From Bacteroidaceae bacterium (GTDB lineage Bacteria > Bacteroidota > Bacteroidia > Bacteroidales > Bacteroidaceae), in NCBI GenBank assembly GCA_902362375.1, contig CABIVS010000004.1, forward strand, positions 549,304 through 613,303: a stretch of DNA of 64,000 nucleotides, read 5' to 3'. Positions 27,955 through 58,101 of the stretch are shown piece by piece. The position numbers and the translations under genes are program-made. How positions within the stretch are numbered: the stretch's first letter is position 1; the number at the start of each line of letters is the position of its first letter. The notes beneath the pieces are model-generated. The model saw only the letters and a program-made list of their open reading frames with translations, ran no database searches and had not been told where the DNA came from.

Positions 27955-27987
27955 TTTTTTATCAGATTAGTTAATATTTAAAAGTCA

Positions 27988-37800: not shown

Positions 37801-37822
37801 TACTCGGCACATTTGATTGATT

Positions 37823-40710: not shown

Positions 40711-40736
40711 GAGTAGAGAAATCCTTTATTGTAATG

Positions 40737-40784
40737 ATCCCTGCCCGGCTTTCCGCTTTCGGTTTCCGGGTGGGGATTTTTTTC
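40737..40784 (+). terminator. Intrinsic terminator after the amidoligase pair
   Basis: ATCCC and GCCCGG (40737-40748) pair with CCGGG and GGGGAT (40766-40776) with one mismatch bulge, followed by a run of seven T. It ends the upstream transcript. Confidence 0.8.
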
Positions 40785-41072
40785 TTTCATCGCAATTCCG
40801 TGAGATACAAATCTTCCACTCCGGCACATACGTGCCTGATTCTTCCTCACTCGTCAGAAGGTAACGATCAATGCACATAATCGCTAATATTTTAAAGAAC
40901 AAATATCAACCACCGGTTCCTTTCCTGACAATAACCGACTACGGATGACTATACATGACAGGGTATTTTATCTTATTGGCGGAATCTTTTCCTTTACACC
41001 GCAAAATATGATACCGCCTAAGGTTTCAGGTTTTTACACGATTGCATTATTATCCTTTAACAATAGAATAAA
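40785..41072. promoter_or_regulatory. Intergenic region before traA, probable tra promoter region
   Basis: About 290 bp without a gene, following a strong terminator and preceding the tra run, so the traA promoter must lie here or the operon depends on readthrough. I see an imperfect inverted repeat (TTGGCGG near 40977 and CCGCCTAA near 41013) but no clear Bacteroides -33/-7 pair. No tRNA-like fold was found in it. Confidence 0.4.
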
Positions 41073-41852
41073 ATGAAAAAAGAACCGTTATTTATTGCCT
41101 TTGCCAGCCAGAAGGGTGGTGTCGGAAAGTCGACTTTCACCGTTCTTGCCGCCAGCATCCTGCATTACCAGAAAGGCTATCGGGTGGGAGTCGTGGATTG
41201 CGACGCCCCCCAGCACAGTATCTTCAACATGCGTGAACGTGACATGGAAAGTGTGGAAAAGAGTGATTTCCTGAAAGTCGCCCTCTACCGCCAGCACGAA
41301 CAGCTCCAGAAACTTGCTTATCCGGTTATCAGGAGCGATCCGGAGAAAGCGATGAAGGACATACATGATTATATGCAAAAAGAAGGAGCCGAATTTGACA
41401 TTGTCCTTTTCGACCTGCCGGGAACGTTGCGATCCGAAGGAGTGATTTACACCATCTCCTCGATGGATTATATTTTCGTGCCTCTCAAAGCGGACAATAT
41501 CGTCATGCAGAGTTCCCTTGAATTTGCCGAAGTTGTCGGGGAAGAATTAGTAGCCCGTCACAATTGCAATTTGAAAGGTGTCCATCTCTTTTGGAATATG
41601 ATTGACCGCCGTGAGAGAAAAGAGACTTGTCAGGCATGGGATACGGTCATGCGGAAAGCGGATATGAAACTGTTGGATACACGTATTCCCGATACGAAAC
41701 GCTACAACAAGGAACTCAGCCATACCCGTAACAATATCTTCCGTTCCACCCTGTTTCCACCGGACAACCGTGAGATAAAAGGTTCCGGCCTTTTGGAACT
41801 GCTGGACGAGATCAGCTGGATTGCCGGCTTGAAATCCTCTTCTACTTTATAA
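41073..41852 (+). CDS. traA: TraA, ParA-family ATPase of the conjugative element
   Basis: 259 residues. Deviant Walker A KGGVGKS (residues 14-20) with the leading lysine typical of ParA/MinD; VVDCDAPQHS is the A' motif and FDLPG the Walker B. This is the usual first gene of Bacteroidales tra operons (called TraA in CTnDOT-type elements). It probably helps place the element or transfer machinery in the cell. Both TGG codons followed by A in this gene are ordinary (FWNM, SWIA), unlike in traE, G, K and M. Confidence 0.9.
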   Translation: MKKEPLFIAFASQKGGVGKSTFTVLAASILHYQKGYRVGVVDCDAPQHSIFNMRERDMESVEKSDFLKVALYRQHEQLQKLAYPVIRSDPEKAMKDIHDYMQKEGAEFDIVLFDLPGTLRSEGVIYTISSMDYIFVPLKADNIVMQSSLEFAEVVGEELVARHNCNLKGVHLFWNMIDRRERKETCQAWDTVMRKADMKLLDTRIPDTKRYNKELSHTRNNIFRSTLFPPDNREIKGSGLLELLDEISWIAGLKSSSTL

Positions 41853-42942: not shown

Positions 42943-42975
42943 ATGAATATGAGAAAGTATTTTGATTCCGGTTGA
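42943..42975 (+). CDS. Mini-ORF 1 of the leader array: ...KYFDSG then TGA
   Basis: From the inner ATG at 42949 it reads MRKYFDSG and stops at TGA 42973-42975, followed by TCC; an ATG two codons upstream is in frame. If the TGA is read, the frame continues SGCCEPLK, then a second TGA (43000-43002, followed by A), then SV and TAA. That tail lines up codon for codon with the tail of mini-ORF 2 (SGHGEFLKRSV then TAA). Function inferred as a regulatory leader peptide. Confidence 0.6.
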   Translation: MNMRKYFDSG

Positions 42976-43029: not shown

Positions 43030-43056
43030 ATGAGAGATTTCTTTGACTCCGGTTGA
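43030..43056 (+). CDS. Mini-ORF 2 of the leader array: MRDFFDSG then TGA
   Basis: Eight codons and TGA at 43054-43056, followed by TCC. Reading through the TGA gives SGHGEFLKRSV and TAA at 43090-43092. Preceded by a purine-rich run (CGAAAAAGC) as a possible ribosome-binding site. Confidence 0.6.
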   Translation: MRDFFDSG

Positions 43057-43110: not shown

Positions 43111-43137
43111 ATGACTGGCTTCTATGATTCAGGTTGA
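43111..43137 (+). CDS. Mini-ORF 3 of the leader array: MTGFYDSG then TGA
   Basis: Eight codons and TGA at 43135-43137, followed by TTC. Readthrough would add FFLFIKADIQNK and end at TAA 43174-43176. Preceded by AAAAAAGAAGAC. Confidence 0.6.
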   Translation: MTGFYDSG

Positions 43138-43202: not shown

Positions 43203-43229
43203 ATGATTGGTTACTATGACTCAGGTTGA
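43203..43229 (+). CDS. Mini-ORF 4 of the leader array: MIGYYDSG then TGA
   Basis: Eight codons with a strong ribosome-binding site (GGAGG, 7 bases before the ATG) and TGA at 43227-43229, followed by TCC TAA, so readthrough adds only Ser. Last of four tandem copies with the shared ending aromatic-aromatic-Asp-Ser-Gly-TGA; the copies differ at third codon positions (GAT/GAC, TCC/TCA), which suggests the peptide is under selection. Confidence 0.65.
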   Translation: MIGYYDSG

Positions 43230-43330: not shown

Positions 43331-43639
43331 ATGAAAAGACATTTTAAAAAGACGGTTGCGCTTATCGCATGAATAGCTGTTTCCACCCTGAGTGCCTATG
43401 CCGAGGGGGACGGAAGTGCCGGTATCACAAAGGCCACATCCATGCTTGCCAGCTATTTCGATCCGGCCACGAAGTTGATATATGCCGCAGGAGCCATTGT
43501 AGGGCTGATAGGCGCGATAAAAGTTTATTCCAAGTTTTCTTCAGGAGACCCCGATACCGGAAAAACTGCCGGATCCTGGTTTGGAGCCTGTGTTTTCCTG
43601 ATTGTCGCCGCGACCGTCCTGCGTTCATTCTTCCTGTAA
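43331..43639 (+). CDS. traE: TraE (DUF4134-type) with in-frame TGA in the signal segment
   Basis: 102 residues if the in-frame TGA at 43370-43372 (codon 14, followed by A) is read as Trp. N-terminus MKRHFKKTVALIA-(TGA)-IAVSTLSAYAEG is a signal peptide; the rest (SYFDPATKLIYAAGAIVGLIGAIKVY, DTGKTAGSWFGACVFLIVA) matches TraE of Bacteroidales conjugative transposons, a small membrane protein of VirB2/pilin-like size. With a normal stop the product would be 13 residues; an internal ATG at 43442 would lack the signal peptide. The other Trp in the gene is TGG (followed by T). No frameshift. Confidence 0.85.
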
Positions 43640-43650
43640 TATAGACGGTT

Positions 43651-44001
43651 ATGGAATACAATATCAACAAAGGGATCGGACGCAGCGTGGAGTTTAACGG
43701 CCTGCAGGCACAATATCTTTACTTCTTCGTAGGCGGCCTGCTTGCCATCTTCCTGCTGTTCGTCATCTTTTATATGATAGGTATTGACCGGTGGTTCTGC
43801 ATCGGCTTCGGTGTCCTTTCCGCTTTCGGGCTGATCTTCGGGATGTTCCACCTGAACAAGAAGTACGGTCCCAATGGCTTGATGAAGCTGGCAGCAGTCA
43901 AATACCACCCGTTTTATATCATCAATCGCAAACGTATATCTTCCTTATTTAAAAAACGTATTCATGAGAAATATATTAAAAGCCGCAACGCTGGAAAGTA
44001 A
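43651..44001 (+). CDS. traF: TraF (DUF4133-type), VirB3-like
   Basis: 116 residues, uninterrupted. Two adjacent membrane helices (residues about 24-70), then a basic C-terminal half (KYHPFYIINRKRISSLFKKRIHEKYIKSR). Position before traG and the size fit the VirB3-like TraF. Its 3' end overlaps the start of traG by 38 bp, which couples their translation. Its single Trp codon is TGG followed by T. Confidence 0.88.
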   Translation: MEYNINKGIGRSVEFNGLQAQYLYFFVGGLLAIFLLFVIFYMIGIDRWFCIGFGVLSAFGLIFGMFHLNKKYGPNGLMKLAAVKYHPFYIINRKRISSLFKKRIHEKYIKSRNAGK

Positions 44002-46465
44002 GTTTCCTATCCTGTCGGTGGAAGAAGGATGCATCCTCTCCAAGGATGCGGACGTGACCATCGGCTTCAAGGTCTTCTTGCCGGAGCTGTTCACGGTCAC
44101 TTCCGCAGACTATGAATCCATGCACGGCACATGAACAAAGGCAGTCAAGGTACTGCCGAATTACACGATAGTGCACCGGCAGGACTGGTTCCTGAAAGAG
44201 AATTATAAGGCCGACACGCAGAAGGACAAAATGAGTTTTCTGGACCGTTCCTTTGAGCTCCACTTCAATGAACGGCCTTTCCTGAACCATTTTGCCTACC
44301 TGTTCATCACCAAGACAACCAAAGAACGGAGCCGCAAAGAGAGCAACTTCTCCATTCTCTGCCGGGGAAACATCATCCCGAAGGAAGTCCGAGACAAGGA
44401 TGCGGTCAGCCGCTTTCTGGAGAGTGTTGACCAGTTCGAATGTATCCTGAATGACTCGGCCTTCATCCGCCTGGAACGGCTGACCACCGATGAAATTGTC
44501 GGCACGCCGCAGCGTGCCGGGCTGATCGAGAAATATTTCTCCCTTTCACAACAGGACACGACCACACTGAAGGATATACAGATGAGCGCATCAAAGATGC
44601 GCATCGGGGACAATATCCTCTGTGTACACACCCTTTCCGATGTGAACGATCTTCCCGGCTCTGTCCGGACGGATACCCGGTATGAGAAATACTCCACCGA
44701 CCGTAGCGACTGCCGTCTGAGTTTTGCCGCTCCAGTGGGGCTTATGCTTTCCTGTGACCATATCTACAACCAATATTTGTTCATAGACGATTCAGCGGAA
44801 ATCCTGCAACGTTTTGAGAAAACGGCACGCAACATGCATTCGCTCTCCAAGTACAGCCGTGCCAACCAGCTCAACAAACAATGGATCGACGCTTATCTGG
44901 ACGAAGCACATTCTTTTGGTTTGACTGCCATCCGTTGCCATTGCAATGTCATGGCATGGTCGGACAGCCGGGAGAAGCTAAAGGTGATAAAAAACGACAC
45001 CGGTTCGGCTTTAGCACTGATGGGATGCAAGCCCCGTTACAATACCATTGACGCGCCTACCCTGTACTGGGCGGGCATTCCCGGCGGTGAGGGTGATTTT
45101 CCTGCCGAGGAGTCCTTCTATACTTTCATCGAGCAGGGAGTCTGCTTCTTTACCGGGGAGACGAACTATGCGGATTCCCTGTCGCCTTTCGGCATCAAGA
45201 TGGCAGACCGGACCAACGGGAAACCCCTGCATCTGGACATCTCGGACGAGCCGATGCGCCGTGGTATCATCACGAACCGAAACAAACTGGTTATCGGTCC
45301 TTCCGGTTCGGGCAAGTCATTTTTTATGAACCATTTAGTGAGGCAGTATTGGGAACAGAATACTCACATTATACTGATTGATATCGGGAACAGTTACAAG
45401 GGTTTATGCGACCTGATCCACCAGCGTACAAACGGGGAGGATGGCGTGTATTATACGTATAGCGAAAAACACCCGATAGCTTTCAACCCCTTTTTTACAG
45501 CGGATAAGATCTTTGACCTGGAGAAGAAAGAGTCCATTAAAACGCTGATTATGTCCCTTTGGAAAAGGGATACGGAAGTAATCACCCGTGCCGAGGAAGT
45601 GGCCCTCTCAATGGCGGTCAACCTGTTTCTTGAAAAGATAAAGGAGGATGTTGAGCTGGTTCCTTCCTTTAATACTTTCTACGAGTTCGTACAGGGAGAG
45701 TTCCGTGGAATACTGGAGGAGAAACATTACCGCGAGAAGGATTTCGACCTCACTAACTTTCTGAATGTATTGGCTCCATATTACCGTGGTGGAGAATATG
45801 ATTATCTGCTGAATTCAGATGAGCAGCTCGACCTGCTGAACAAGCGTTTTGTAGTATTTGAAATTGACGAAATTAAGGAGCATAAAATTCTTTTTCCAGT
45901 GGTAACGGTCATTATCATGGAGGCTTTTATCAACAAAATGAGACGGTTACATGGGGTTCGGAAGATGATAGTTGTGGAAGAGGCATGAAAGGCAATCGCC
46001 CGTGAAGGCATGGCGGATTATATTAAATTTTTGTACAAAACCGTCCGCAAATATTTCGGGGAAGCCGTAGTTGTTACGCAGGAGTTGGATGACATCGTGT
46101 CAAGTCCTATTATCAAAGATACCATCATTAACAATGCCGATTGTAAGATTTTGTTGGACCAGCGAAAGTATATCAACAAGTTCGATTCCGTGCAATCCCT
46201 GCTGGGATTGACCGACAAGGAGAAAGGGCAGATTCTGTCCATCAACCAGGCCAATGATCCGGCAAGAAAATATAAGGAAGTTTGAATTGGCTTGGGCGGA
46301 GTCCGGTCTGCGGTCTACGCCACGGAGACCTCGGTTGAGGAGTACCTCACTTATACCACGGAGGAAACTGAGAAACTCGAAGTCACGCAAATGACGGAGA
46401 AGCTGGGCGGCAATATGGAGCAGGCCATCCGTATGCTGGCAAGTGAGAAGAAAAAGAAAAAATAA
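43964..46465 (+). CDS. traG: TraG, VirB4-like conjugation ATPase with three in-frame TGA codons
   Basis: 833 residues when TGA at 44132-44134 (codon 57), 45986-45988 (codon 675) and 46283-46285 (codon 774) are read through; all three are followed by A and nothing else breaks the frame. The start overlaps traF. Walker A GPSGSGKS lies near residues 445-452. The second TGA is in VVEEA-(TGA)-KAIAREG, exactly where VirB4-type ATPases have the conserved Trp of the extended Walker B (D/E-E-A-W). The C-terminal part (FGEAVVVTQELDDI, ILLDQRKYINKFDSVQSLLG) is typical TraG. Six other Trp codons are TGG, two of them followed by A. This ATPase powers assembly of the type IV secretion channel. Confidence 0.88.
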
Positions 46466-46483
46466 GGTTAAAATCAAGAAGTA

Positions 46484-47116
46484 ATGAAAAAGAAAGTTTT
46501 AAGTCTATTGTTTGTCCTGCCGGCTTTAATTGTGCCGGCAAGCGTGCAGGCGCAGTGGGTGGTGTCCGATCCGGGCAACTTGGTCCAAGGTATCGTGAAC
46601 AGTGTGAATGAGATGGTGGAAACCTCACAAACGGCGCAGAATGCCCTTTCCACATGGAAGGAAACCTCGAAAATATTCGAACAGGGACGGGAGTATTACG
46701 AGAAGCTGCGCAAGGTGAACGACCTGATCAGCGGCAGCGAGAAAGTCAAGGAGTCCGTCCTGATGCTGGGCGATATTTCCGAGATTTATGTGAACAATTT
46801 CGGCAAGATGCTGACCGACAAGAATTTCAGCCAGCGGGAATTGGACGCGATAGCCTCCGGTTATAATACGATCATGAAGAAAAGCAGCCGCAGCATTGCC
46901 GAACTGAAGAATATCATCAATCCCACCGGCATGTCCATGAACGACAAGGAGCGTATAGACCTGGTAAACCGGGTATATGGAGAAATGACGCATTACAAGA
47001 AGCTTGCGAACTATTATACCCGAAAGAACCTGCATGTATCCTACCTGCGTGCCAAACAGAAAAATGAACAACAGCAGGTATTTGATTTGTATGGCAAAGA
47101 CGAGCGTTACTGGTAA
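46484..47116 (+). CDS. traI: TraI (DUF4141-type), periplasmic conjugation protein
   Basis: 210 residues, uninterrupted. Signal peptide (to about ASVQAQ), then a helical protein with TAQNALSTWKETSKIFEQGREYYEKL, as in TraI/TrbJ-like proteins of Bacteroidales elements. All three Trp codons are TGG, including one followed by A, so TGA use is not uniform across the operon. 18 bp after traG. Confidence 0.88.
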   Translation: MKKKVLSLLFVLPALIVPASVQAQWVVSDPGNLVQGIVNSVNEMVETSQTAQNALSTWKETSKIFEQGREYYEKLRKVNDLISGSEKVKESVLMLGDISEIYVNNFGKMLTDKNFSQRELDAIASGYNTIMKKSSRSIAELKNIINPTGMSMNDKERIDLVNRVYGEMTHYKKLANYYTRKNLHVSYLRAKQKNEQQQVFDLYGKDERYW

Positions 47117-47140
47117 TCATTCAATTAAAATAAGAACAGT

Positions 47141-48160
47141 ATGTTGCTAATGTCTATTTCATTTGAAAACTTACACCAGATTCTCCGAAATCTGTACGAT
47201 ACGATGACCAGGCTCTGCCAGCCGATGATGGATATGGGAATGGCACTGGCCGCACTGGGAGCCTTGTTCTACATCGCTTACCGGGTATGGCAGTCCCTTT
47301 CCCGTGCCGAGCCGATAGATGTTTTTTCGATGCTCCGACCTTTCGTACTGGGTATCTGTATCCTCTTTTTCGATATAATGGTGCTGGGAACCCTTAACGG
47401 TATCTTCAGTCCCATTGTCCAGGGAACCGGCACTCTACTCCGGGACCAGACCTTCGATTTGCAGAAATACCAGCAGGAGAAGGACAAGCTCCGGGCGGAT
47501 ATGCTGGCAAAAACCATGATGACCGGAAGCGTCTTTGCCTCTAACGAGGAGCTGGATGCTGAACTGGAGAACATGGGCTGGAGCGAGGAGGAGCATACGG
47601 CTTTGCAAACAATGTATGAGGTTTCCTATTCTTTCTCCCTACAGGGGATCACCCAGATGATCATGCGCAAACTGCTGGAGATCCTTTTCCAGTCCGCTAC
47701 GCTGGTCATCGACACGATCCGCACCTTCTTTTTGATTGTATTGAGTATTCTTGGGCCGATAGCTTTTGCCTTGAGTGTATTCGACGGTCTGCAGAACACG
47801 CTCGTCCAGTGGCTGGCACGCTATATCAGTGTCTACCTCTGGCTGCCGGTATCAGACCTCTTCGGGGCGATGCTCGCCAAGATACAGATGCTTATCCTGC
47901 AGGAGGAGATGAACCTGATGGCTAACCCGATGAGCATCATCGATGTGGACGGTTCCTCGACCATCTATCTGATTTTTATGCTCATTGGTATTATTGGATA
48001 TTTCTGTGTACCGACGGTTTCAAACTGGATCGTTCAGGCCGGAGGCATGAGTGCCTATAACCGGAATGTGAACAATACGGCATCCAAAGTGACCAATGTG
48101 GCGGGTGCCGCGGCAGGTGCTTCAACGGGGAATGTCGGAGCAGTATTATTGAAAAAGTAG
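47141..48160 (+). CDS. traJ: TraJ, VirB6/TrbL-like inner-membrane channel protein
   Basis: 339 residues with several membrane helices (about 30-55, 70-90, 180-215, 235-255, 270-300) and the conserved ISVYLWLPVSDLFGAMLAKIQ and FCVPTVSNWIVQAGG stretches of TraJ. Glycine/alanine-rich tail. All Trp codons are TGG, two of them followed by A. An earlier in-frame start at 47141 is favoured over 47150 (MSISFENL), but either is possible. Confidence 0.9.
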   Translation: MLLMSISFENLHQILRNLYDTMTRLCQPMMDMGMALAALGALFYIAYRVWQSLSRAEPIDVFSMLRPFVLGICILFFDIMVLGTLNGIFSPIVQGTGTLLRDQTFDLQKYQQEKDKLRADMLAKTMMTGSVFASNEELDAELENMGWSEEEHTALQTMYEVSYSFSLQGITQMIMRKLLEILFQSATLVIDTIRTFFLIVLSILGPIAFALSVFDGLQNTLVQWLARYISVYLWLPVSDLFGAMLAKIQMLILQEEMNLMANPMSIIDVDGSSTIYLIFMLIGIIGYFCVPTVSNWIVQAGGMSAYNRNVNNTASKVTNVAGAAAGASTGNVGAVLLKK

Positions 48161-48182
48161 GAATGTAAAAAGTATAAGAATT

Positions 48183-48806
48183 ATGGAATTCAAGAGTTTT
48201 AAGAACATCGAATCCTCGTTCAGGCAGATACGCCTGTTCACGCTGGTCTTTCTGGGTATTTGCGCATCGCTCACGACCTATGCCATCTGAAAGTCCTACC
48301 TGTTCGCTAACCGGCAGCGGGAGAAGGTGTATGTGCTGGATCAGGGCAAGTCATTGATGCTGGCATTGTCACAGGATGCGGCGTTGAACCGTCCGGTGGA
48401 AGCCCGCGAGCATGTGCGCCGCCTACATGAGCTGTTCTTTACGCTGGCTCCCGACAAGGCCGCCATCGAATCCAACATCAACCGTGCCATGTATCTGGCG
48501 GACAAGAGCCTTTACGGGTATTACAAGGATTGGAACGAAAAAGGATATTATAACCGGCTGATCAGCGGCAATATCAACCAGACCGTCCTGGTGGACAGCA
48601 TGCAGTGTGACTTCGATAACTATCCCTACCGGATCATCACCTTTGCCCGGCAGATGGTTGTCCGCAGCAGCAATATTACCGAGCGTTCCCTGGTCACCCG
48701 TTGTTTCCTGCAGAGTGTAACCCGGTCGGATAATAATCCGCAAGGCTTTATGGCGGAGCGTTTCGAGATTCTGGAGAACAGGGATATAAGGACCGTTGAA
48801 CGCTAA
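48183..48806 (+). CDS. traK: TraK, VirB8-like protein with in-frame TGA in its membrane anchor
   Basis: 207 residues when TGA at 48288-48290 (codon 36, followed by A) is read. MEFKSFKNIESSFRQIRLF and TLVFLGICASLTTYAI-(TGA)-KSYLFANRQREKVYVLDQGKSLMLAL: the TGA closes the single N-terminal membrane helix where TraK homologues have Trp (…VWKAY…). The periplasmic part (SQDAALNRPVEAREHVRRLHELFFTLAPDK, SDNNPQGFMAERFEILENRDI) is typical TraK. Stopping at the TGA would give 35 residues. The one other Trp is TGG followed by A. Confidence 0.88.
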
Positions 48807-48819
48807 AAAGAACAGGATA

Positions 48820-49095
48820 ATGAAAAGCAGAAAAATAAAAACAGAAATCGGTGAAAAACTGAAGGGCGTTTGCGAAAGCCTGTCGGAGAAAGAGCGTAAG
48901 GGAGTGCTTGTCGGCATGCTGGTTATCAGCACGATCTTGTGTGGTGTCACGGTAGCGCGCGCTTTCGGACGTTTCCTTTCTCACGGCACACAAAAGGAGC
49001 TGCCGTTTGGCAGGCATGTTCCGGCAGATTCACTCCACCGGACAGATAAAGACAGTATTATGTATCATTCTAAATCAACGGATAATGGAAGATAA
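48820..49095 (+). CDS. traL: TraL (DUF3989-type) small membrane protein
   Basis: 91 residues from the ATG at 48820 (MKSRKIKTEIGEKLKG); an in-frame ATG at 48796 would overlap traK. One membrane helix (GVLVGMLVISTILCGVTVA). No Trp at all. It overlaps traM by 11 bp. Standard between traK and traM in Bacteroidales elements. Confidence 0.82.
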   Translation: MKSRKIKTEIGEKLKGVCESLSEKERKGVLVGMLVISTILCGVTVARAFGRFLSHGTQKELPFGRHVPADSLHRTDKDSIMYHSKSTDNGR

Positions 49096-50386
49096 AGAAT
49101 TGGAAAAGCCCGAAGCGGCAGAAGAAACGGCGGTACAGCCGGAAACCGGCAGAGCCTTGCAGGATGAGCCGGGGAGAGAGAAGAGGGTGCTTACCCCGGA
49201 AGAAATTGAGAAAAGAAGGAAGTTTATTGTGATTCCGGCCTTTATACTGGTATTCCTGGGGGTCATGTACTGAATATTTGCCCCGTCCGGTAAGGAGAAC
49301 GGGACGAAAGTTTCCGGCAACTCCGGGTTCAACGTGAATGTCCCGGAGCCTACCACGGCCAAGCTGTTGGATAAGAAGACCGCCGCTTACGAGAAGCAGC
49401 AGGCGGAAGTGGAGGAAAAAAGCCGGATGAAATCGCTGGAACAGCTTGCCGGGACGTTGCTGGATGGTGGAAAAATAACACCCGATGCCAACGAAAAAGA
49501 CGGGGACAGGCTGCAACAGTCAGTCAAGACCTACGAGCAAATTTCCAGCCAGCTGGATGATTTCTATGAGACTCCCGAAAAAACTGTAAACAGCGATCTG
49601 GAGAGAAAAGTGGAGGAGTTGAACAAGAAGCTGGAAGAAGCGGAAAAAGAAAAGGACCGGAGGGCTTCCCGTGAAGAACTGATGGAGCGTTCCTACAAGA
49701 TGGCGGCAAAATATCTGAATCCGGATAAGGATACCATAAAAGAAGAAACAACCGGAGAAGAACTGCCGGAAGCTGTTCCGGTACAGCGGGCGGAGCATCA
49801 GACCACCTCCGGCCTTTCACAGCCGGTTACGGATTCCGCCTTTATCGCTTCACTCGTCGTTGAAAGGAATCACGGTTTCAATACAGCCGTAGGCAGCAGT
49901 TACCGGATGGGGACAAATACCATTGCCGCCTGCATTTCGGAAAACCAGACTGTCGAACAGGGAGGCAGGGTAAGACTCAGGCTGCTCCAACCCCTGCAAG
50001 CCGGAAACATCACCGTTCCTGCCAACAGCCTGGTAACGGGTGCGGCGGTAATCCAGGGGGAACGGCTGGATATCCTAATCAGCAGCATCGAATATGCGGG
50101 GAATATCATCCCCGTGCAGCTGGCGGCCTATGATGTGGATGGGCAGAAAGGAATCTTTGTTCCCGGCTCCGATACCCGCAGTGCGGCAAAGGATGCGGCG
50201 GGGACGGTCAGCGAGAGCATGGGAAACAGCGTATCGTTTGCACGTTCCGCCGGGCAGCAGGTGGTGATGGACCTGACGCGCGGAGTCATGCAGGGCGGCA
50301 CACGGTTAATCGCCGGACGGGTTCGCGCGGTCAAGGTGACACTGAAAGCCGGATATAAGGTGCTGTTGGTCACAAAGAAACAATAA
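49085..50386 (+). CDS. traM: TraM, VirB10-like protein with in-frame TGA in its membrane anchor
   Basis: 433 residues when TGA at 49271-49273 (codon 63, followed by A) is read. The anchor reads IPAFILVFLGVMY-(TGA)-IFAPSGKENG; homologues have Trp or an aromatic before this IFAPSG motif. Then a coiled coil (about 85-200) and the VirB10/TrbI-like C-terminal domain (NTIAACISENQTVEQGGRVRLRLLQP, AVDLTRGVMQGGTRLIAG-like). Truncation at the TGA would leave 62 residues; a downstream ATG at 49334 would lack the anchor. No other Trp codon in the gene. Confidence 0.88.
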
Positions 50387-50419
50387 CGGATTATTCACTT
50401 TAATAAAAAAGATAAGACA

Positions 50420-51319
50420 ATGAAAACAGTTATAGCATTCTTGATGGCTGTTCTGGCCTCGGTATCCGGTTTTTCACAGGAGGAAAGACCGGCAAATCCA
50501 GTCAGGATTCTGACGGCGGGCCAGCATATCACCCCTTATAAAATTGAGGTCACTTTCAGCAAGACGGTGCATATCCTTTTTCCTTCCGAAGTACGCTATG
50601 TAGACCTGGGCAGTAACAATATCATTGCGGGCAAAGCCGACGGGGTGGAGAATGTAGTACGTGTAAAAGCGGCGGTAAAAGAGTTCCCGGGTGAGACAAA
50701 CTTCTCGGTTATTACAGGCGACGGTTCCTTTTTTTCTTTCAATGTGGTTTATAAAGAGGAGCCTTCTACGCTGAATATCAATATGGACCAATGGATGAAC
50801 CCGGACGAAGGGGAAAAGAAAGGAGGCAGTTCCATCCGTATCACGGAGCTGGGTGAAGAAGATCCGACGGTCATCGCCAGCGTGATGTACACCATCCACC
50901 GGCTGGACCGCAGGGACGTGAAGCATATCGGATGCCGTCAGTTCGGGGTGCAGGTTCTTCTGAAAGGTATTTACGTGCATAAGGACCTGCTCTTCTTCCA
51001 CGTTTCCCTGACGAATAATTCCCATGTGCCTTTCGATGTGGATTTCATGCGGTTTAAAATAGTAGATAAGAAGATAGCCAAACGGACGGCGCAGCAGGAA
51101 ACCTATATCGAACCGGTACGCACGCTCAATGCCCTGACACGCATCGAGGGAAAAGGTACGGGACGTATCGTGTATGCTTTCCCGAAGATAATTATTCCTG
51201 ATGACAAGTTATTGGAAGTGGAAATCTACGAGAAAGCAGGAGGCCGCCACCAGCGGTTCTATATTGAGAATAGTGATCTGGTGGATGCGCGTGTCATGAA
51301 TGAATTAATCAAGGAGTAA
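50420..51319 (+). CDS. traN: TraN, VirB9-like protein
   Basis: 299 residues, signal peptide ending near SGFSQEE. The sequence YKIEVTFSKTVHILFPSEVRYVDLGSNNIIAGKADGVENVVRVKA is the hallmark of TraN (DUF4138). It forms the periplasmic/outer-membrane collar of the channel with TraM. Uninterrupted; its Trp codon is TGG followed by A. 3 bp before traO. Confidence 0.92.
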   Translation: MKTVIAFLMAVLASVSGFSQEERPANPVRILTAGQHITPYKIEVTFSKTVHILFPSEVRYVDLGSNNIIAGKADGVENVVRVKAAVKEFPGETNFSVITGDGSFFSFNVVYKEEPSTLNINMDQWMNPDEGEKKGGSSIRITELGEEDPTVIASVMYTIHRLDRRDVKHIGCRQFGVQVLLKGIYVHKDLLFFHVSLTNNSHVPFDVDFMRFKIVDKKIAKRTAQQETYIEPVRTLNALTRIEGKGTGRIVYAFPKIIIPDDKLLEVEIYEKAGGRHQRFYIENSDLVDARVMNELIKE

Positions 51320-51321
51320 TC

Positions 51322-51906
51322 ATGAAAAGGGTTTTATTTATTATGTTATGTATTTGTCTGCCCTTTGCGGCAGACAAATCCTTTGCCCAACGCTATTTGC
51401 CGGGACAACAGGGCATCCAGCTTACGCTTGGCGGTGTAGACAACTTCGGTTCCAATGTAAAGCATTTAGGCGGTAACTTTCAGGTGGACCTGGCTTTGAG
51501 CCGGTATAATCGGAACCATTCCCGCTGGTTGTTCGGGGTGGATTATGTGAAGAAACACTATTCCTATAAGGAGATTGCAATACCCAAAGCACAGTTTACC
51601 GGGGAAATAGGTTATTTCGTGCCGTTCTTCTCGGACCGTGACAAGAACGTGTTCTTCTCTGCCGGGCTTTCCGGACTGGCCGGCTATGAGACGACCAACT
51701 GGAACAGGAAGCTGCTCTATGACGGGGCAGCACTAAAGAATGACGGCTGCTTCATTTACGGTTTTGTTCCGGCTTTCGAGATGGAAGTGTTCCTTTCGGA
51801 CAGGCTGGTGCTTCTTTTCAATGTCCGCCAAAGGATATTCTTCGGTTCGTCCGTTGGACATTTCCACACGGTGGTCGCCGCCGGATTCAAGTACATTTTT
51901 AATTAG
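51322..51906 (+). CDS. traO: TraO, outer-membrane-type conjugation protein
   Basis: 194 residues with a signal peptide (about 1-22, KSFAQ). Alternating strands and repeated glycine/aromatic pattern (GIQLTLGGVDNFG, HSRWLFGVDYVKKHYSYKE, ending in FKYIFN) suggest a small beta-barrel, as in TraO proteins. Uninterrupted, with a TGG followed by A. Confidence 0.85.
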   Translation: MKRVLFIMLCICLPFAADKSFAQRYLPGQQGIQLTLGGVDNFGSNVKHLGGNFQVDLALSRYNRNHSRWLFGVDYVKKHYSYKEIAIPKAQFTGEIGYFVPFFSDRDKNVFFSAGLSGLAGYETTNWNRKLLYDGAALKNDGCFIYGFVPAFEMEVFLSDRLVLLFNVRQRIFFGSSVGHFHTVVAAGFKYIFN

Positions 51907-51913
51907 GGATAGC

Positions 51914-52396
51914 ATGGAAAAAAATAATTGGAATATAGACCGGATGCTGCACTGGCTGGACATAAAAATAGAACGGGAAAACCGGGACATAGCCAAGCTG
52001 GAGAAACAGATGGACGGGAATTTTCTGTACTATTTCGAGTGGAATGCGGAGAGCCTGTACAAATCCCACTTTATGTCAGACTGTTATAAGAAACTCCGCC
52101 AGGCGGTGGATGGAATAAAAGACATCAATAAAATCAGGAATGTCCTCAAGGAGAATGCCGCCTGCTGTGAGAAGAAACTGCTGGACGGCCAATTGGATTG
52201 CCGAAGTTCCAGCCGGGGGGCGAACATGGTCCATTCCATGAGGCTGGAATGTATGCAGCAGCTGATAAAGGATTACCGGGAATTTGCGAATATTCTTTCA
52301 GTAACACCTCCTGAAGAAAATCAGCAGCAGGCACATAAAACCGGAAAGAAAGAAGGACCGCCTGAAAAGAAGATAAAATGGGGTGTCAGGCGTTAG
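51914..52396 (+). CDS. Tra-associated protein, unknown function (paralogue of 52916-53401)
   Basis: 160 residues from the ATG at 51914, 8 bp after traO. Helical and charged, with a basic tail rich in K. It aligns along its length with the gene at 52916: GNFLYYFEWNAESLYKSHFM against SNYLYFFGWHADDLYKAYYM, and SMRLECMQQLIKDYREFANIL against SLEMECKQELLKDLRKLNRIL. I do not recognise the family. Lying between traO and traQ it stands where traP would be, but it does not look like a primase. Confidence 0.8.
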   Translation: MEKNNWNIDRMLHWLDIKIERENRDIAKLEKQMDGNFLYYFEWNAESLYKSHFMSDCYKKLRQAVDGIKDINKIRNVLKENAACCEKKLLDGQLDCRSSSRGANMVHSMRLECMQQLIKDYREFANILSVTPPEENQQQAHKTGKKEGPPEKKIKWGVRR

Positions 52397-52445
52397 CCAT
52401 GCCACCGGATTCAAGTAAATTATTAATTTAATAAAACGTAAAGTC

Positions 52446-52904
52446 ATGAAGATAAAATTAATTGCAAGCAGTATCATGTTCACATTGCTGTGCCTGCTGG
52501 GTAGCTGTGACGATAAACTGGAAGTGCAGCAGGCTTATGATTTCTCCCTTACCTCGTGGTATCTTCAGAAAACCATCTCCCCGGATGAGACCGTGGAGAT
52601 TCGTCTGACACTGAACCGCAGCGGAAACTATGAGGAAGCCCGCTATCAAATCGGTTATATACAGATGGAGGGTAGCGGTGAAGTATACGACAAGAAGAAT
52701 GTCCGGCTGGTGAACCGGGAGATGCAACCGTTGGATTCGATTGCGGAGTTGGACGGCAGCGATCCTTGCCGGCAGGTATTCACACTCTTCTATCGTAACC
52801 GGAGCAGCAAGAATGCGGAGATTAAGTTTGTGGTGACGGATAATTTCCACCAGAAAAGAGAACTGGATGTGTCTTTTCAGAGCGAAACGGATACGAAACA
52901 ATAA
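52446..52904 (+). CDS. traQ: TraQ (DUF3872-type) lipoprotein
   Basis: 152 residues. Lipoprotein signal with Cys at residue 20 (LLCLLGSC), then KLEVQQAYDFSLTSWYLQKTISPDETVEIRLTL, the conserved start of TraQ. A beta-rich domain follows. Conserved in Bacteroidales tra operons; its role in the channel is not established. Confidence 0.9.
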   Translation: MKIKLIASSIMFTLLCLLGSCDDKLEVQQAYDFSLTSWYLQKTISPDETVEIRLTLNRSGNYEEARYQIGYIQMEGSGEVYDKKNVRLVNREMQPLDSIAELDGSDPCRQVFTLFYRNRSSKNAEIKFVVTDNFHQKRELDVSFQSETDTKQ

Positions 52905-52915
52905 ACGGGGCAGCG

Positions 52916-53401
52916 ATGGATAAAAGTGATTTAAGGATCGAACAGTTGAAGCAATATCTTGACAAGAAGAAAGGTGTTGTGGAAAGCAATATAAAAGAGT
53001 ATAGCGCACAACTGAAAAGCAACTATCTTTATTTCTTTGGTTGGCATGCCGATGACTTGTATAAGGCCTATTATATGGATAAAAATTACAAGACTATTCA
53101 GGAGTCGATTGATGCCGCTGAAACGCCGAAGGACATTGAAGGGATTTTGAAGCGTTGTACCCTGTATTTAGAAGATGATCTCCTGCACGGTCCGCTTGTT
53201 GCAAGGAGTACCAGTCCGATGTCGAATATGGCCCATTCCCTGGAGATGGAATGCAAACAGGAATTACTCAAGGACCTACGGAAATTAAATAGAATTCTTC
53301 AGAATGAGACTGTCTGTGAAAGAATGAGGCCGCAAGAAGCACCGCGACAAGAGATTGTGCCTGTGAAAGAAAAAAAGAGAACGGGACCACGGTTGAGATA
53401 A
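52916..53401 (+). CDS. Tra-associated protein, unknown function (paralogue of 51914-52396)
   Basis: 161 residues, 11 bp after traQ. Related along its length to the gene at 51914, so the two copies bracket traQ. Predicted helical with a coiled-coil-like N-terminus (IEQLKQYLDKKKGVVESNIKEYSAQLKSN) and a basic tail (KEKKRTGPRLR). No enzyme motif seen. It is the last rightward gene of the tra run and is followed by a terminator. Confidence 0.8.
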   Translation: MDKSDLRIEQLKQYLDKKKGVVESNIKEYSAQLKSNYLYFFGWHADDLYKAYYMDKNYKTIQESIDAAETPKDIEGILKRCTLYLEDDLLHGPLVARSTSPMSNMAHSLEMECKQELLKDLRKLNRILQNETVCERMRPQEAPRQEIVPVKEKKRTGPRLR

Positions 53402-53418
53402 TATCAATTAAAAGCAAT

Positions 53419-53453
53419 AAAAAAGCTACTGAATTTTGTTTCAGTAGCTTTTT
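53419..53453. terminator. Bidirectional intrinsic terminator between tra run and leftward operon
   Basis: AAAAAGCTACTGAA and TTCAGTAGCTTTTT form a perfect stem around a short loop with A-run and T-run on either side, so it can end both the rightward tra transcript and the leftward BRO/methyltransferase transcript. Confidence 0.9.
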
Positions 53454-53478
53454 ATTTATCACAGTCTTACAATTCCGG

Positions 53479-54252
53479 TTATACCAGATAAGACTCTAAA
53501 AGATTATGTATGAATAACCGGCCCTTTTCCGTCCAAACGGTCAACATAGCCGTTCCGGTTTCTCCTGTACGGCTTTCCCATACATGGGTTCGGGTTACCG
53601 TATAGCCTTGATTCTGGTAAGGAGCTTTGAGTAGCCACTGACCGGATTGGCGGAACTGGATGCCTGCCCATCGGAGCCGCTTGTTCAGCATGCCGGCAGT
53701 CATTCCCAATTCTTTAGCTATCTGCGTGGTTGTGTAGGTACTTTGGGATTGCAGGACTTTGTCGTAATAAGTGACTTTAGGGGCCTGTAACTTCAGTTTC
53801 AGGAAGACAAGGCTGTTTTCCTTTTCCAACACGGAAATACGGCTGTCTCGCTCTTTTAGACGCTTCTGTGCGAGCAATACGGCACGGGCAAGCAGTTCAT
53901 TATCCGTCTCTCCGTTCTTTTTCAGGAGATAACCACCGTCCTTCAGTGTTTCAGGCACCAGTTCATCAAATATCCAGCTCTCGAATTTTTCGGCGGCAGG
54001 CAGTTTGCTGCCAGCGATCAGGCGGTACACATTCCCTTCATTGATGTATTTTATCTTCTGTACGGCACTGCGCGTGGGTGTGTCGTAAATCGCGACGCCC
54101 ATTGGTTTACAGTGTCTTGCAACGGCATCCCTCGGATTGGCATAGCCCAGTGCGGAGGCTATGTCGGACGCGCAAAACCATATTTTCCCATCAATATCCA
54201 ATGTCCGGATGCGTCCGAACTCAGGATGTTCAAATATTGATACTTTATTCAT
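53479..54252 (-). CDS. BRO-N / KilAC-type phage antirepressor-like protein
   Basis: 257 residues. N-terminal BRO domain (about 1-115: FCASDIASALGYANPRDAV, KYINEGNVYRLIAGSKLPAAEKFESWIFDELVP) and a C-terminal KilAC-like DNA-binding domain (about 160-255: ITTQIAKELGMTAGMLNKRLRWAGIQFRQSGQWLLKAPYQ-like pattern, with HVWESRTGE). Such proteins act as antirepressors or transcription regulators in phages and elements. Its ATG overlaps the end of the methyltransferase gene by 8 bp, so the two are co-translated. Trp codons are all TGG, some followed by A. Confidence 0.9.
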   Translation of the reverse strand: MNKVSIFEHPEFGRIRTLDIDGKIWFCASDIASALGYANPRDAVARHCKPMGVAIYDTPTRSAVQKIKYINEGNVYRLIAGSKLPAAEKFESWIFDELVPETLKDGGYLLKKNGETDNELLARAVLLAQKRLKERDSRISVLEKENSLVFLKLKLQAPKVTYYDKVLQSQSTYTTTQIAKELGMTAGMLNKRLRWAGIQFRQSGQWLLKAPYQNQGYTVTRTHVWESRTGETGTAMLTVWTEKGRLFIHNLLESYLV

Positions 54253-55513
54253 GACTGTTTAATTTATAGGTTTCTTCTATTGCTTTGAATATCTCGTAGA
54301 CTACCTGGGGGACGATGGCGTTTCCGTATCCTTTGATGGATTTATCTCTTCACTGAGAAAAGGAGACACCGTCCAACTTGGCGGAAAACCCATCATCTCA
54401 GCTACAAACAGTGGGTTGAGTTGGAAACTCTTTCCAGTCCGGGCGAAGAAATCGGGAAGGCTGTTCTTTTCCGGTATCCGGCCTCTCTTCTCGAGGCTCT
54501 CCAGGCTTGCCGCACCTTTCCAGTCCCTCGCCGTCGGCGTGGGCAGAAGTTCCGCCATCCTCCCAAGCCCTACACTCCAGACATGGCCTTTCTGATTGAT
54601 CTTCCGTATCTTCCCTTTCGGTGTCACAATAATCCTGTCGTTTTTCCCCATTACAGCCCCCACACCGGCATCGCTGGCTACCGGAGTGGGCAGCATCCCG
54701 TAAAAATCCAGAAAGTCGCTCAGGCCGTCGGGCTGTTTCTCCCCATTGAGTTGGCTGTGAGGGGATGGCGCATGGAGCTGTTTCCATTTGTGGACTCTCT
54801 CCGGATGGTGTATTTCCGTGGCCGGCGGGGTAGGAAGAAGCATCGCACGGATGGTCTCCGGCAGTCCCTGCTGGCTGCTGTTCGGCTCCCTCAGTTTGTA
54901 ATCCTGCGCAGTCACGGTGGGCAATAAACCAAACCCGGTCCCTCCTGTGGGGCGCACCGACGGCGCAAGCCGGTATAAGTATCGGCTGGACGGAATATCC
55001 TTCACGTTCAAGATCACGGCAAATGGTTTCAACGACATATTGCTGCCGTCTTTTAAATACAGGCTCACTCTCTCCGAATAGAGTGGATTGGCTTCCCACT
55101 TCAGTCTCCTGACCGGGCTGTACCATCGTGAGGATGCCAGCAACATTTTCACCAATGACCCAATCAGGCCTGATTTCATGTATGACCCGGAGCATGTGAG
55201 GCCAGAGGTAACGGTTATCATCCGCTCCTTTTCTTTGGCCTGCGACGGAAAAGGGTTGACAAGGAAAACCTCCTGTAAGGACATTAATTTTTCCTCTTCA
55301 CTGTTTGAAGTCTGTTTTTGTGATGTCTGTATAACTTTTCGCATCTTTAAACCAGTAATTTAAAACCGCGTTACAAAAATCATCTATCTCACAATGGAAA
55401 GCGTTCTGCCATCCCATTCATTCGGCTGCCAGATCAGGGGCACCGAATCCGCTGAAAAGGGAAGCATGTACCAAACGCTTCTCTTTTTTAGTACTTTGCT
55501 TTTCTTCTTTCAT
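54245..55513 (-). CDS. DNA cytosine-5 methyltransferase with four in-frame TGA codons
   Basis: 422 codons from the ATG complementary to 55511-55513 to the TAA at 54245-54247. Motif I FSGFGAPDLAAE-(TGA)-MGWQ, motif IV GGFPCQPFSVAGQRKG with catalytic Cys, motif VI PDWVIGENVAG, motif VIII APHRRDRVWFIAH and the final motif YGNAIVPQVVYEIF are all in one frame. TGA codons: 32 (55418-55420), 72 (55298-55300, KQ-TGA-RGK), 372 (54398-54400) and 388 (54350-54352, SQ-TGA-RDK). Codons 32, 72 and 388 are followed by A and sit where homologues have Trp; codon 372 is followed by G and its family residue is uncertain. Seven Trp codons followed by other bases, and one followed by A, stay TGG. Active only if TGA is decoded. 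Confidence 0.82.
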
Positions 55514-56438: not shown

Positions 56439-58028
56439 TCATTCTTTATTCTTTTCCTTCCATTTGTGTGGCAACATTTGTAACAGTTCCTCATAATTTG
56501 CCTTCTGCATATATGGCATTCTTGCTATAACGTCATTCAGATAAGTGCGCGGATTTACTTTATGCGCTTTGCACGTAGCCAGTAACGAACAGACGACACT
56601 CATGCTGACGGCCGCCTGATGGTCTCCACAGAACAAGTAGTTCTTTCTACCCAATGTGATTGGTCGGATGGCATTTTCCGCCAGATTGTTATCAATATGG
56701 ATACGTCCATCCTGCAGATACCTCATCATATTCTCCCAGCGGGTATAGGCATAGGTTATCGCCTTTCCGGTCAGGCTGTTTGGGCTGTATTTTATCCCTT
56801 CTGTTTCCATCCATAGCTTCAAGGCATCCATAATAGGTCCGGCAAGTTCCTGACGTTTTCCCATTCGTTCATTTTCTGTAAGCTGCTTCTGGTCACAGTC
56901 ATGTTCTATGCGATATAGAAGCTGTATTTCTTTTAAGGCATGTTCCGCCATCTGCCTGTTTTCAGCAAGTGCCTGCTCAAAATACCTGCGTATATGAGCC
57001 ATGCAGTTAACAAGGCGCACATTCGGGTTGACCTTGAAAGCCGATTCGTAACCCTCAAAGCCGTCACATTGGAAATAACCCTTGAAGTCTTTAGCCAGTT
57101 GCCCTATCACCGTACCTGACCGTGATCCTTTGTCATAATGGAAAAGCACCAGTCGTTCGACTACCGCCCTGACCATCCACAAGTATTCCTTGTTGGTCTG
57201 ATGTCCTGCCTTGTCCAGTACAGGTACGGTCGTTTCATCCCCCTGTATGTAGTCGGATTTCATGATTTCCTGCCTGAGTACCTCGTAAAGTGGCTTGAGA
57301 AGTTCAACCGCAGGCTTGAACCATCCGTCTATGGTACTTTCACTAGCTTTGAAGCCCAGGTGATGCAACTGTTTCACCTGGCGGTAGAAGGGAAGATGAT
57401 ACTCATATTTCTGCAGGAGTATCTCCGCCAAAAGTGTAGGTCCCGCTATTCCTTTGTATATAGGCAACAGCGGCATGGCGGCTATCTCCACTCCTTTTCT
57501 GCCGACCGGTGGAAGTGAAGTGTTGTCTTTAAGGGCATATTTGGGCCGTACAATCTCCTTTATATAAAGTTGTCCGGGCTTATGTTCCACCACACGGGTC
57601 ACTTCCTCACCAATCTTCCTGTACAGTTCCAGGTCAATGTCTTCCGGCTCGATGATTACCCTTTCAAGTACGGGAAGACCTTCCATTATCCTGCGGTTAT
57701 TCCGTTCCCGTTTCTTGCTCTCCACCGTTTCTTTTGTGATTGTCTGCACCGCTACTTCACGCGCTTTTTCCAGTTCAGCCGCGTTATCAGGAAGAAAGTC
57801 ACCGAACAGGTCAGGCTGGTTGGAATCAAGAGACGGGAGTTTCTCTGACTTGTGACCGAAAAGCTGGCGGTTCAGCCATGCGACTTGAGCCGTCAGCTCA
57901 TTGAGACGGTTCTGTAAGGATTCATTCTGCCGGGTAAGCCTGATAATGGTCTCAGCCTGGGATGCGTTCACCTGCTGCAGGGACTGCAGCATTGAGTTCA
58001 TCTGTGGAAGCATCTCTTCCTGAGTCAT
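56439..58028 (-). CDS. tnpC: IS66 transposase (TnpC, DDE type)
   Basis: 529 residues, full length. An N-terminal coiled coil (about 5-50), the IS66 N-terminal and zinc-binding-like domains, then the DDE domain with YIQGDETTVPVLD (first Asp), QCDGFEGYESAF (second Asp) and GRIHIDNNLAENAIRPITLGRKNYLFCGD (the conserved end with the catalytic Glu). No break seen, so it may be active. Confidence 0.97.
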   Translation of the reverse strand: MTQEEMLPQMNSMLQSLQQVNASQAETIIRLTRQNESLQNRLNELTAQVAWLNRQLFGHKSEKLPSLDSNQPDLFGDFLPDNAAELEKAREVAVQTITKETVESKKRERNNRRIMEGLPVLERVIIEPEDIDLELYRKIGEEVTRVVEHKPGQLYIKEIVRPKYALKDNTSLPPVGRKGVEIAAMPLLPIYKGIAGPTLLAEILLQKYEYHLPFYRQVKQLHHLGFKASESTIDGWFKPAVELLKPLYEVLRQEIMKSDYIQGDETTVPVLDKAGHQTNKEYLWMVRAVVERLVLFHYDKGSRSGTVIGQLAKDFKGYFQCDGFEGYESAFKVNPNVRLVNCMAHIRRYFEQALAENRQMAEHALKEIQLLYRIEHDCDQKQLTENERMGKRQELAGPIMDALKLWMETEGIKYSPNSLTGKAITYAYTRWENMMRYLQDGRIHIDNNLAENAIRPITLGRKNYLFCGDHQAAVSMSVVCSLLATCKAHKVNPRTYLNDVIARMPYMQKANYEELLQMLPHKWKEKNKE

Positions 58029-58101
58029 AATCCGTTTCTTTTAATTACACTATAAATGTACAAAATATATCCCGGACAGACAAGGAATACGACATCTATT
58101 T

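Follow-up and report, generated by a model that had tools for sequence, protein, structure and literature searches.

A CTnDOT-type transfer operon with in-frame TGA codons

The window, by which we mean the whole stretch of 64,000 nucleotides analysed here (a Bacteroidaceae bacterium, assembly GCA_902362375.1, contig CABIVS010000004.1, positions 549,304 to 613,303), contains a glycan-use locus and an element whose similarity to relatives spans about 37.6 to 59.2 kb. The element carries a CTnDOT-type transfer operon, with TraG (TIGR03783), TraJ (TIGR03782), TraK (TIGR03781), TraM (TIGR03779) and TraN (TIGR03780) above the NCBIfam cut-offs, and this work concerns the TGA codons that lie in frame in several of its genes and in a gene for a C5 DNA methyltransferase. 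Among the 30 open reading frames (ORFs) of the window scanned with NCBIfam, no integrase, relaxase or drug-resistance family was named; the record of one relative, NZ_OY725938.1, holds an integrase and a MobV relaxase together with the same tra block.

An earlier note, made from the sequence alone, had listed nine such codons in traE, traG, traK, traM and the methyltransferase gene, and had stated that each is followed by A. All nine lie where it placed them (Table 1), no TAA or TAG interrupts the five frames, and its tally in these genes (9 TGA before A, 4 TGG before A and 12 TGG before another base) is exact, but a tenth TGA, at methyltransferase codon 372, stands before G, so that the rule on the following base holds for the nine and not for all. 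G002 has Arg (CGA) at the site of this tenth codon, and all 110 that align there of 120 listed homologues have either Gly or Arg. With the tenth TGA included, the association of TGA with a following A in the five genes of the window has a Fisher p of 0.0036.

Conservation of the TGA codons in related elements

Homologues were compared among the best 80 of 402 relatives obtained by a TraG scan of genome contigs, of which four (L001, L002, L003 and L051) are close relatives of the window, with 85-92% DNA identity over long stretches, and the remaining 76 are referred to as the other loci. Family 1 consists of eight elements, namely the window, these four loci, G410 and G424 from a pattern search of the genus, and NZ_OY725938.1 from a plasmid collection. 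Family 2 was reached through a lone match of that pattern search in G521 and extended with a looser pattern; it has nine members (G521, a second element of G410, G412, two of G424, G429, G249, G273 and G523), and a further G523 element, with 70% identity to the window in TraG and 81% in TraK, forms a third lineage. The earlier note had proposed to look for the same TGA sites in related elements, and they do recur, across 18 elements in three lineages with the window included.

The codon kept most widely is traG57, which is TGA in every element covering it (7/7 in family 1, 9/9 in family 2 and 1/1 in the third lineage, 17/17 in total), followed by traK36, which is TGA in 8/8, 9/9 and 0/1, respectively (17/18, with TGG in the third lineage). 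Within family 1, TGA is also constant at traE14 (7/7 covering elements), traM63 (8/8) and methyltransferase codons 32 (6/6) and 388 (7/7), and the variable sites all stand before A: traG774 (TGA in five, TGG in three), traG675 (TGA in the window only, TGG in five), and methyltransferase codons 72 (TGA in two, TGG in five) and 223 (TGA in four, TGG in one). The G521 element, whose TraG is 67% identical to that of the window, has in-frame TGA codons in traF47, traG57, traG675, traI53, traK36 and traO46, as well as in a neighbouring gene that we presume to be radical-SAM-like, and it has Ala at traE14 and Phe at traM63. In all nine family-2 elements, traG57 is TGA before G and traK36 is TGA before A. 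The radical-SAM-like gene has TGA at codon 152 in 8/8 covering family-2 elements and alternates between TGA and TGG at codon 34, as do traF47, traG675, traI53 (also Ile), traO46 and traG271. The third lineage has TGA at traE14, traE18, traG57, traM63 and methyltransferase codons 32 and 72, and TGG at methyltransferase codon 388.

A FastTree phylogeny of traG, traJ, traK and traN (82 taxa, 1754 columns, with 7 too-short loci dropped) places the 13 elements with interrupted genes that it contains, hereafter gated elements, in one clade with support of 1.0, in which family 1 is sister to the third-lineage element, and the distance between the window and G521 is 0.72 amino-acid substitutions per site. 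In 157 genomes of the genus, TraK was matched 142 times, with one TGA in 15 of the matches, a TAA in one (G456) and no stop in 126; the 15 with TGA belong to the 15 loci with recognised arrays of micro-ORFs described below, the array and traK lying on different contigs in G001, G004 and G429. Among 53 TraK matches in 393 genomes of the order, a stop was present only in the copy of G002 that belongs to this clade, and the four other TraK copies of that genome have none.

The earlier note took all nine codons to be tryptophan sites, and alignment with homologues shows mostly Trp at seven of them but not at traE14 and traM63. At traG57, 75 of 79 homologues have Trp and the other four, which are close relatives, have TGA; traG675 is TGG in 78 of 79 and TGA in one; traG774 is Trp in 52 of 75 and Phe in 23; and traK36 is Trp in 57 of 72, Phe in 9, TGA in 3 and another residue in 3. 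In the methyltransferase, Trp was found among the listed homologues, where they align, in 101/115 at codon 32, 116/116 at codon 72 and 107/107 at codon 388. The homologues of traE14 have mostly Ala or Val and those of traM63 have Leu in 55 of 69, both sites lying in hydrophobic stretches. The alignments agree with the view that the codons must be read through, with Trp as the likely residue. A reading of UGA as selenocysteine was rejected, as no Rfam match of the SECIS (selenocysteine insertion sequence) type was found and most homologues have Trp.

Several of the related elements carry further insertions and cargo. In G001, G002, G003 and G410, traG is split by a 2.49-kb insertion (L118:11863-14353, corresponding to window site 46032/46035), which is present neither in the window nor in G424 and in which an Rfam match at L118 14257-14353 marks the end of a group II intron; family 2 has insertions of similar size elsewhere, in traI of G410 and traG of G273. 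L198, a B. finegoldii record, holds a Hachiman defence pair and a glycan-use locus (10821-14995, 22485-41316) besides the same transfer block. The radical-SAM-like gene of family 2 lies between micro-ORFs (in G521 at 1319-2224 of L250+L251, taken in the turned orientation). In G424, G412, G273 and G523, the elements are located on contigs 4 to 6.8 Mb long.

Selection and stop codon usage in the gated elements

Behind the first TGA of traE, traG, traK and traM, the ratio of nonsynonymous to synonymous substitution rates (dN/dS) of the window against G424, G003, G002 and G410 is 0.061, 0.062, 0.052 and 0.063, at dS of 0.21, 0.52, 0.78 and 0.71, with traG codons 686-695 entering twice at the insertion in some relatives. 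The uninterrupted tra genes of the same pairs give 0.087, 0.071, 0.054 and 0.060. In family 2, the sequence behind traG57 and traK36 of G521 against G410, G273, G249 and G412 has dN/dS of 0.069, 0.057, 0.044 and 0.043, at dS of 0.73, 0.82, 0.63 and 0.48, and uninterrupted genes have 0.082, 0.059, 0.071 and 0.067. The codons preceding the TGAs are also under selection (dN/dS 0.08-0.12). Throughout family 1, traE, traF, traG, traI, traJ, traK, traM, traN and traO are free of interrupting TAA or TAG, and G424 has a TAG upstream of the traP start.

The preference of TGA for a following A is a property of the window's own family and not of its second-family relatives. Over 17 genes and eight elements, family 1 has 50 TGA before A, 2 TGA before another base, 101 TGG before A, 182 TGG before another base and one TAA, and both exceptional TGAs and the TAA lie in the two-frame stretch of the methyltransferase gene; the corresponding counts in family 2 are 29, 16, 72 and 190. 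Nor is TGA a free synonym of TGG in family 1: among 27 tra tryptophan sites of five full elements, 2 mix TGA and TGG, 4 are all TGA and 21 are all TGG, and in the same elements A-ending and G-ending codons are mixed at 197 of 455 sites for Lys, Glu and Gln.

TGA is likewise avoided as a terminal stop within the operon. From traA to the helix-turn-helix gene, none of 129 family-1 gene ends is TGA (92 TAA, 37 TAG), and the 7 TGA among all 136 ends belong to the amidoligase gene upstream of traA; for traG, these counts contain the ends from only 2 clade records, as the insertion splits the match. The tra and radical-SAM-like genes of family 2 end in TGA in 0 of 83 cases (79 TAA, 4 TAG), and the 76 other loci have terminal TGA in 162 of 723 (traF alone in 66 of 75). 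When the non-TGA fractions are multiplied over the tra genes, on the assumption that genes are independent and that family 1 counts as a single lineage, the result is about 0.016. UGA still terminates the amidoligase gene, the micro-ORFs, the cargo genes in a related record and other genes of the window. The absence of terminal UGA from the operon suggests that readthrough is substantial.

The methyltransferase (METHYLTRANSFERASE) is a less clean case, as a second frame can be read across its second half (54301-55344, minus strand). From about codon 140, this second frame shows dN/dS of 0.12-0.26 in five comparisons, indicating purifying selection, and dN/dS of the main frame there is above 1 (codons 216-371: 1.1 against G424 and 2.3 against G410). 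The odd codons of the gene, TGA-G at 372 in the window and at 283 in G002 and TAA at 242 in G424, lie in this two-frame stretch, and it may be the second frame that fixes the TGA at codon 388; the part of that frame under selection does not reach codons 32 and 72. The second frame reads like the C-terminal part of a methyltransferase, and dual coding or frameshifting is possible. A Bacteroides methyltransferase homologue (P0121) matches PF14890 and has an intein-like insert before the CQPF motif.

Micro-ORF arrays upstream of traE

The gap between traD and traE is about 410 bases in family 1 and contains, in 7/7 elements covering it, four eight-codon ORFs of the form M-x-x-[FY]-[FYH]-D-S-G, whose stops are TGA-T in 28/28. 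Identity between elements is 95% in these micro-ORFs and 82% in the spacers. The nine family-2 elements have 35 micro-ORFs, three to five each (four in G521), which end in [FYH]-D-[S/T]-G and of which several flank the radical-SAM-like gene on either side; their stops are all TGA, followed by T in 26 and by C in 9. The searches also permitted UAA and UAG, and all 63 micro-ORFs counted (28 + 35) stop at UGA. In the third lineage, one micro-ORF (MAKYHDSS-TGA-T) was found in a record that is partly N, in which the array cannot be counted.

In other elements, the traD-traE gap is mostly 115-180 bases, and a single micro-ORF of the form M-x-x-x-x-Y-G precedes traE in 62 of 73 loci with enough upstream sequence. 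Here Y and G were imposed by the search, which 64 of 7400 random segments also match; the second residue is Lys in 62/62 and the fifth is Asp or Glu in 61/62, hence MKxx[DE]YG. The stops are TGA in 37, TAG in 16 and TAA in 9 of the 62. Leader micropeptides are thus common to the family at large, and those of the gated clade are multiplied and restricted to one type of stop. The 7-residue form in L004-L080 is MK[EQK]x[DE]YG (e.g. L049:8983-9006), and in 44 aligned single micro-ORFs it is followed by a CCACTAAAAT motif and, in many, by a hairpin with the loop CTATCCA. RNAalifold gave no covarying RNA structure in the leader of the other elements (three pairs, energy about zero). A Bacteroides-type promoter was matched twice in the window, with 1.8 expected, and neither match is in the traD-traE gap.

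The looser pattern matched 28 of 157 genomes of the genus, and arrays were recognised in 12 of them, at the 15 loci mentioned above; G356, the sole one inspected of the 16 other matching genomes, has no micro-ORF and no tra gene in the stretch concerned. The strict array pattern, which misses family 2, matched 1 of 399 in the family sample, where G249 and G273 were included and yielded nothing, and the search for the single micro-ORF matched 3 of 393 genomes, two of them by single look-alikes; neither count is evidence of absence. G654 has one look-alike micro-ORF, with no tra gene in the stretch. Among viral contigs, the array pattern picked out 23 stretches, four with a short ORF ending in D-S-G and none of the present kind, and the single micro-ORF pattern had no match.

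Table 1 Features of the transfer region, in window positions, with in-frame TGA codons
Feature	Position	Strand	Remarks
Tandem repeat array	37630-38450		about 98-base repeat; left end of similarity with G003
Micro-ORF 1	42949..42975	+	MRKYFDSG-TGA-T; equivalent in 7/7 family-1 elements covering the region
Micro-ORF 2	43030..43056	+	MRDFFDSG-TGA-T
Micro-ORF 3	43111..43137	+	MTGFYDSG-TGA-T
Micro-ORF 4	43203..43229	+	MIGYYDSG-TGA-T
traE	43331..43639	+	TGA at 43370 (codon 14); terminal TAA
traF	43651..44001	+	uninterrupted; terminal TAA
traG (VirB4-type ATPase)	43964..46465	+	TGA at 44132 (codon 57), 45986 (675), 46283 (774)
traI	46484..47116	+	uninterrupted
traJ	47141..48160	+	uninterrupted
traK	48183..48806	+	TGA at 48288 (codon 36)
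orfL	48820..49095	+	uninterrupted
traM	49085..50386	+	TGA at 49271 (codon 63)
traN	50420..51319	+	uninterrupted
traO, traP, traQ, orfR	51322..53401	+	uninterrupted; TGA ends none of them
BRO-N/KilAC antirepressor-like gene	53479..54252	-	uninterrupted; PF02498, PF03374
C5 DNA methyltransferase	54245..55513	-	PF00145 in listed homologues
Methyltransferase TGAs	55418-55420 (codon 32), 55298-55300 (72), 54350-54352 (388), 54398-54400 (372)	-	
IS66 transposase, TnpA + TnpB	56439-58786		near right end of the element; similarity with G002 breaks there

Search for a UGA-reading tRNA

The earlier note had suggested that a suppressor tRNA-Trp(UCA) is carried elsewhere on the element or induced in the cell, and none was found on the window, on related element stretches or in the partial host screens. 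ARAGORN and pattern searches gave no tRNA on the window, and the related element stretches scanned hold none, apart from a transfer-messenger RNA (tmRNA) in one flank. In the G002 genome, 57 of 62 tRNA matches were read, with two tRNA-Trp, both CCA, and no UCA. In 12 host genomes, a pattern for UCA tRNAs that tolerated up to 3 mismatches matched other tRNAs only, among them tRNA-Trp(CCA) in 11 of the 12 (the exception being G003); a looser UCA pattern in G424 matched 21 places, none of them a tRNA. A tRNA-Trp with a 4-bp anticodon stem (PMC13092985) was also considered and rejected, since the tRNA-Trp read in G002 and G001 has 5 bp.

Possible mechanism and alternative explanations

Based on the conservation of the TGA codons, purifying selection, the absence of terminal UGA, the lack of a detected UCA tRNA and the UGA-ended arrays before traE, it is very likely that UGA is decoded as Trp in this old group of conjugative elements while the operon is expressed. 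That this decoding is conserved and functional and proceeds without a dedicated tRNA appears highly probable, and gating of the transfer operon by UGA throughout this old clade, which is of the CTnDOT type and belongs to Bacteroides, is in our judgement probably the best explanation overall. At low expression, UGA would terminate the gated proteins early, and at strong expression of the operon it would be read as Trp at a useful efficiency, yielding full-length proteins; in the window's family, the methyltransferase would be gated too. Up to three UGAs per gene speak for a substantial readthrough. The decoder would be the host's normal tRNA-Trp(CCA) acting while release factor 2 (RF2) is limiting. 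The nascent [FYH]-D-[S/T]-G peptides would hold RF2 at the UGA stops of the micro-ORFs, in the manner of apidaecin, and the operon, once transcribed, would in this way lower free RF2 and license its own downstream genes. According to PMC7544508, apidaecin holds release factors on ribosomes, depletes free RF2 and causes readthrough, and PMC5289835 states that U at position +4, directly behind the stop, lowers readthrough and that UGA-C is leaky. In the window, +4 is A at every Trp-site UGA and U at every micro-ORF stop, which fits micro-ORF stops that would engage RF2 and internal UGAs that would be meant for misreading; the fit is weaker in family 2, in view of traG57 before G and nine micro-ORF stops before C. 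Release-factor trapping by the micropeptide arrays is a plausible and leading mechanism, but we hold it only tentatively to be the cause of UGA decoding, and this step may be wrong while the rest stands. Still more tentative is the full proposal of a conditional code change without a tRNA, in which the arrays, with peptides of six to ten residues derived from MKxx[DE]YG, would be an RF2 switch licensing a UGA-gated secretion system.

Several observations weigh against this interpretation, beginning with the fact that the case is known here from sequence comparison. Single-base frameshifts occur in G424 traG (about codon 690), G001 traJ (about 247) and G429 traG (about 607), and traA and the amidoligase gene of G001 are also broken by frameshifts; those in the three gated elements may be sequencing errors or mark dead copies. 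The TGAs at methyltransferase codons 372 and 283 are not at Trp sites, and traM284 is TGA-C in six of eight family-2 elements and in G429, with Arg in G521 and Leu in G249. The ancestral role of the leader micro-ORF is not UGA-specific, because that of other elements uses any stop and their genes are uninterrupted, and the +4 C behind 9 of the 35 family-2 micro-ORF stops is a weak context. L071, a Prevotellaceae locus outside the gated clade, has a lone TGA before A at traG675 together with an ordinary single micro-ORF. Because the gated elements form one clade, array and TGAs may be one old gain and not a repeated correlation, and some members are near-duplicates (G001/G002, G410/L198 and the two family-2 copies of G424). 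A strong loss of RF2 would be costly, because cargo genes of gated elements end in TGA. The tRNA screens covered the hosts partially, and the window's own genome lies outside them.

Among the explanations that deny full-length products, decay of the genes to pseudogenes has next to no likelihood. It would account for the three elements with frameshifts and for the plasmid record NZ_OY725938.1, which lists no traK and the methyltransferase in pieces (its gene table omits pseudogenes), but dN/dS behind the TGAs is 0.04-0.07 at dS up to 0.82, equal to that of uninterrupted genes, and one traG codon is retained as TGA in three lineages; decay is thus refuted for the tra genes as a group, although individual elements may be dead. 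An origin of the TGAs by sequencing error, or by G-to-A hypermutation of the window's strain, would agree with a change of TGG-A to TGA-A being the strand complement of TC to TT, and is practically ruled out by the recurrence of the codons in relatives 8 to 15% divergent in DNA, two of them even in a family whose TraG is 67% identical in protein. It also seems highly improbable that the genes are split, the true proteins being a short N-terminal peptide and a restarted downstream product. A GTG codon does follow each early TGA in traG, traK and traM, at a distance of 13, 13 and 21 codons, respectively, but homologues continue full-length across the sites, traG675 and traG774 are deep inside the gene, and selection acts before the TGAs as well. 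The early TGAs of traE, traK and traM presumably fall in signal-peptide or membrane segments, which we also count against split genes.

Other explanations accept that UGA is read but assign it to another cause. With constitutive leakiness, basal misreading by the normal tRNA-Trp would turn the TGAs into volume controls and the micro-ORFs into unrelated leaders. This would agree with the failure to find an extra factor and with the rare exchange of TGG and TGA (2/27 against 197/455), expected if UGA is poorer than UGG, but it is doubtful, since with up to three UGAs in traG and up to three at methyltransferase Trp sites the product would be very rare at a readthrough of a few per cent per UGA, and the lack of terminal UGA suggests substantial readthrough. 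Somewhat less doubtful is the possibility that the micro-ORFs are an ordinary tra leader-peptide attenuator and that another factor makes UGA readable; a single MKxx[DE]YG with any stop indeed precedes traE in 62 of 73 loci that have no need of UGA decoding, but multiple UGA-only D-[S/T]-G micro-ORFs were observed in gated elements only. A suppressor tRNA-Trp(UCA) or an altered tRNA-Trp elsewhere in the genome is unlikely, indeed very much so. Stop-recoding gut phages are described with suppressor tRNAs (PMC9523058, PMC12386605), and the tRNAs read individually were 57 of the 62 matches in G002 and a minority of those in the other hosts, but the element stretches scanned gave no tRNA, the tRNA-Trp read in G002 and G001 has the anticodon CCA on a stem of 5 bp, and the UCA patterns found none in the 12 genomes or, in the looser form, in G424.

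If UGA gating is correct, a mobile element can place an entire secretion system under the control of stop-codon readthrough and keep it there over long evolutionary times, and operons of this type are being mistaken for broken ones in current annotation; elements deemed immobile for their interrupted genes may be functional. The system would then allow conditional recoding that needs no suppressor tRNA to be tested directly, and it would indicate that leader peptides six to ten residues long regulate conjugation in gut Bacteroidota. A literature search over titles and abstract openings, in which subscription papers and preprints were mostly not covered, gave no report of UGA in these tra genes or of these micropeptides.

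Comparison with known systems

The transfer operon has the same gene families and order as that of CTnDOT-type conjugative transposons, but of the 76 other loci only L071 has TGA at these sites, and the micro-ORF in 62 of 73 is a single and different one. The known regulation of tra in CTnDOT includes the small RNA RteR (PMC7366714) and, as far as described there, not stop codons. Like the crAss-like gut phages with reassigned stops, the gated elements are Bacteroidales mobile elements that keep stop codons in their genes and shun them as terminators. Unlike in those phages, no suppressor tRNA was found, only UGA is involved, most Trp codons are TGG, and UGA ends cargo genes and micro-ORFs. 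Leader peptides of the TnaC type stall at a UGA stop and likewise come from a short ORF that precedes an operon and stops at UGA, but here there are three to five copies, no known ligand, and UGA in the downstream genes. In the coat readthrough of phage Q-beta, a leaky UGA that is selectively kept is decoded by the normal tRNA as Trp, as we propose for the gated genes; Q-beta makes one minor extended product in this way, whereas several genes here would need readthrough for any full-length product. A parallel to the proposed trapping step is apidaecin, since a loss of free RF2 of the kind described in PMC7544508 would explain UGA readthrough, with the difference that the putative trapper would act here as a nascent chain made from the leader of the operon itself.

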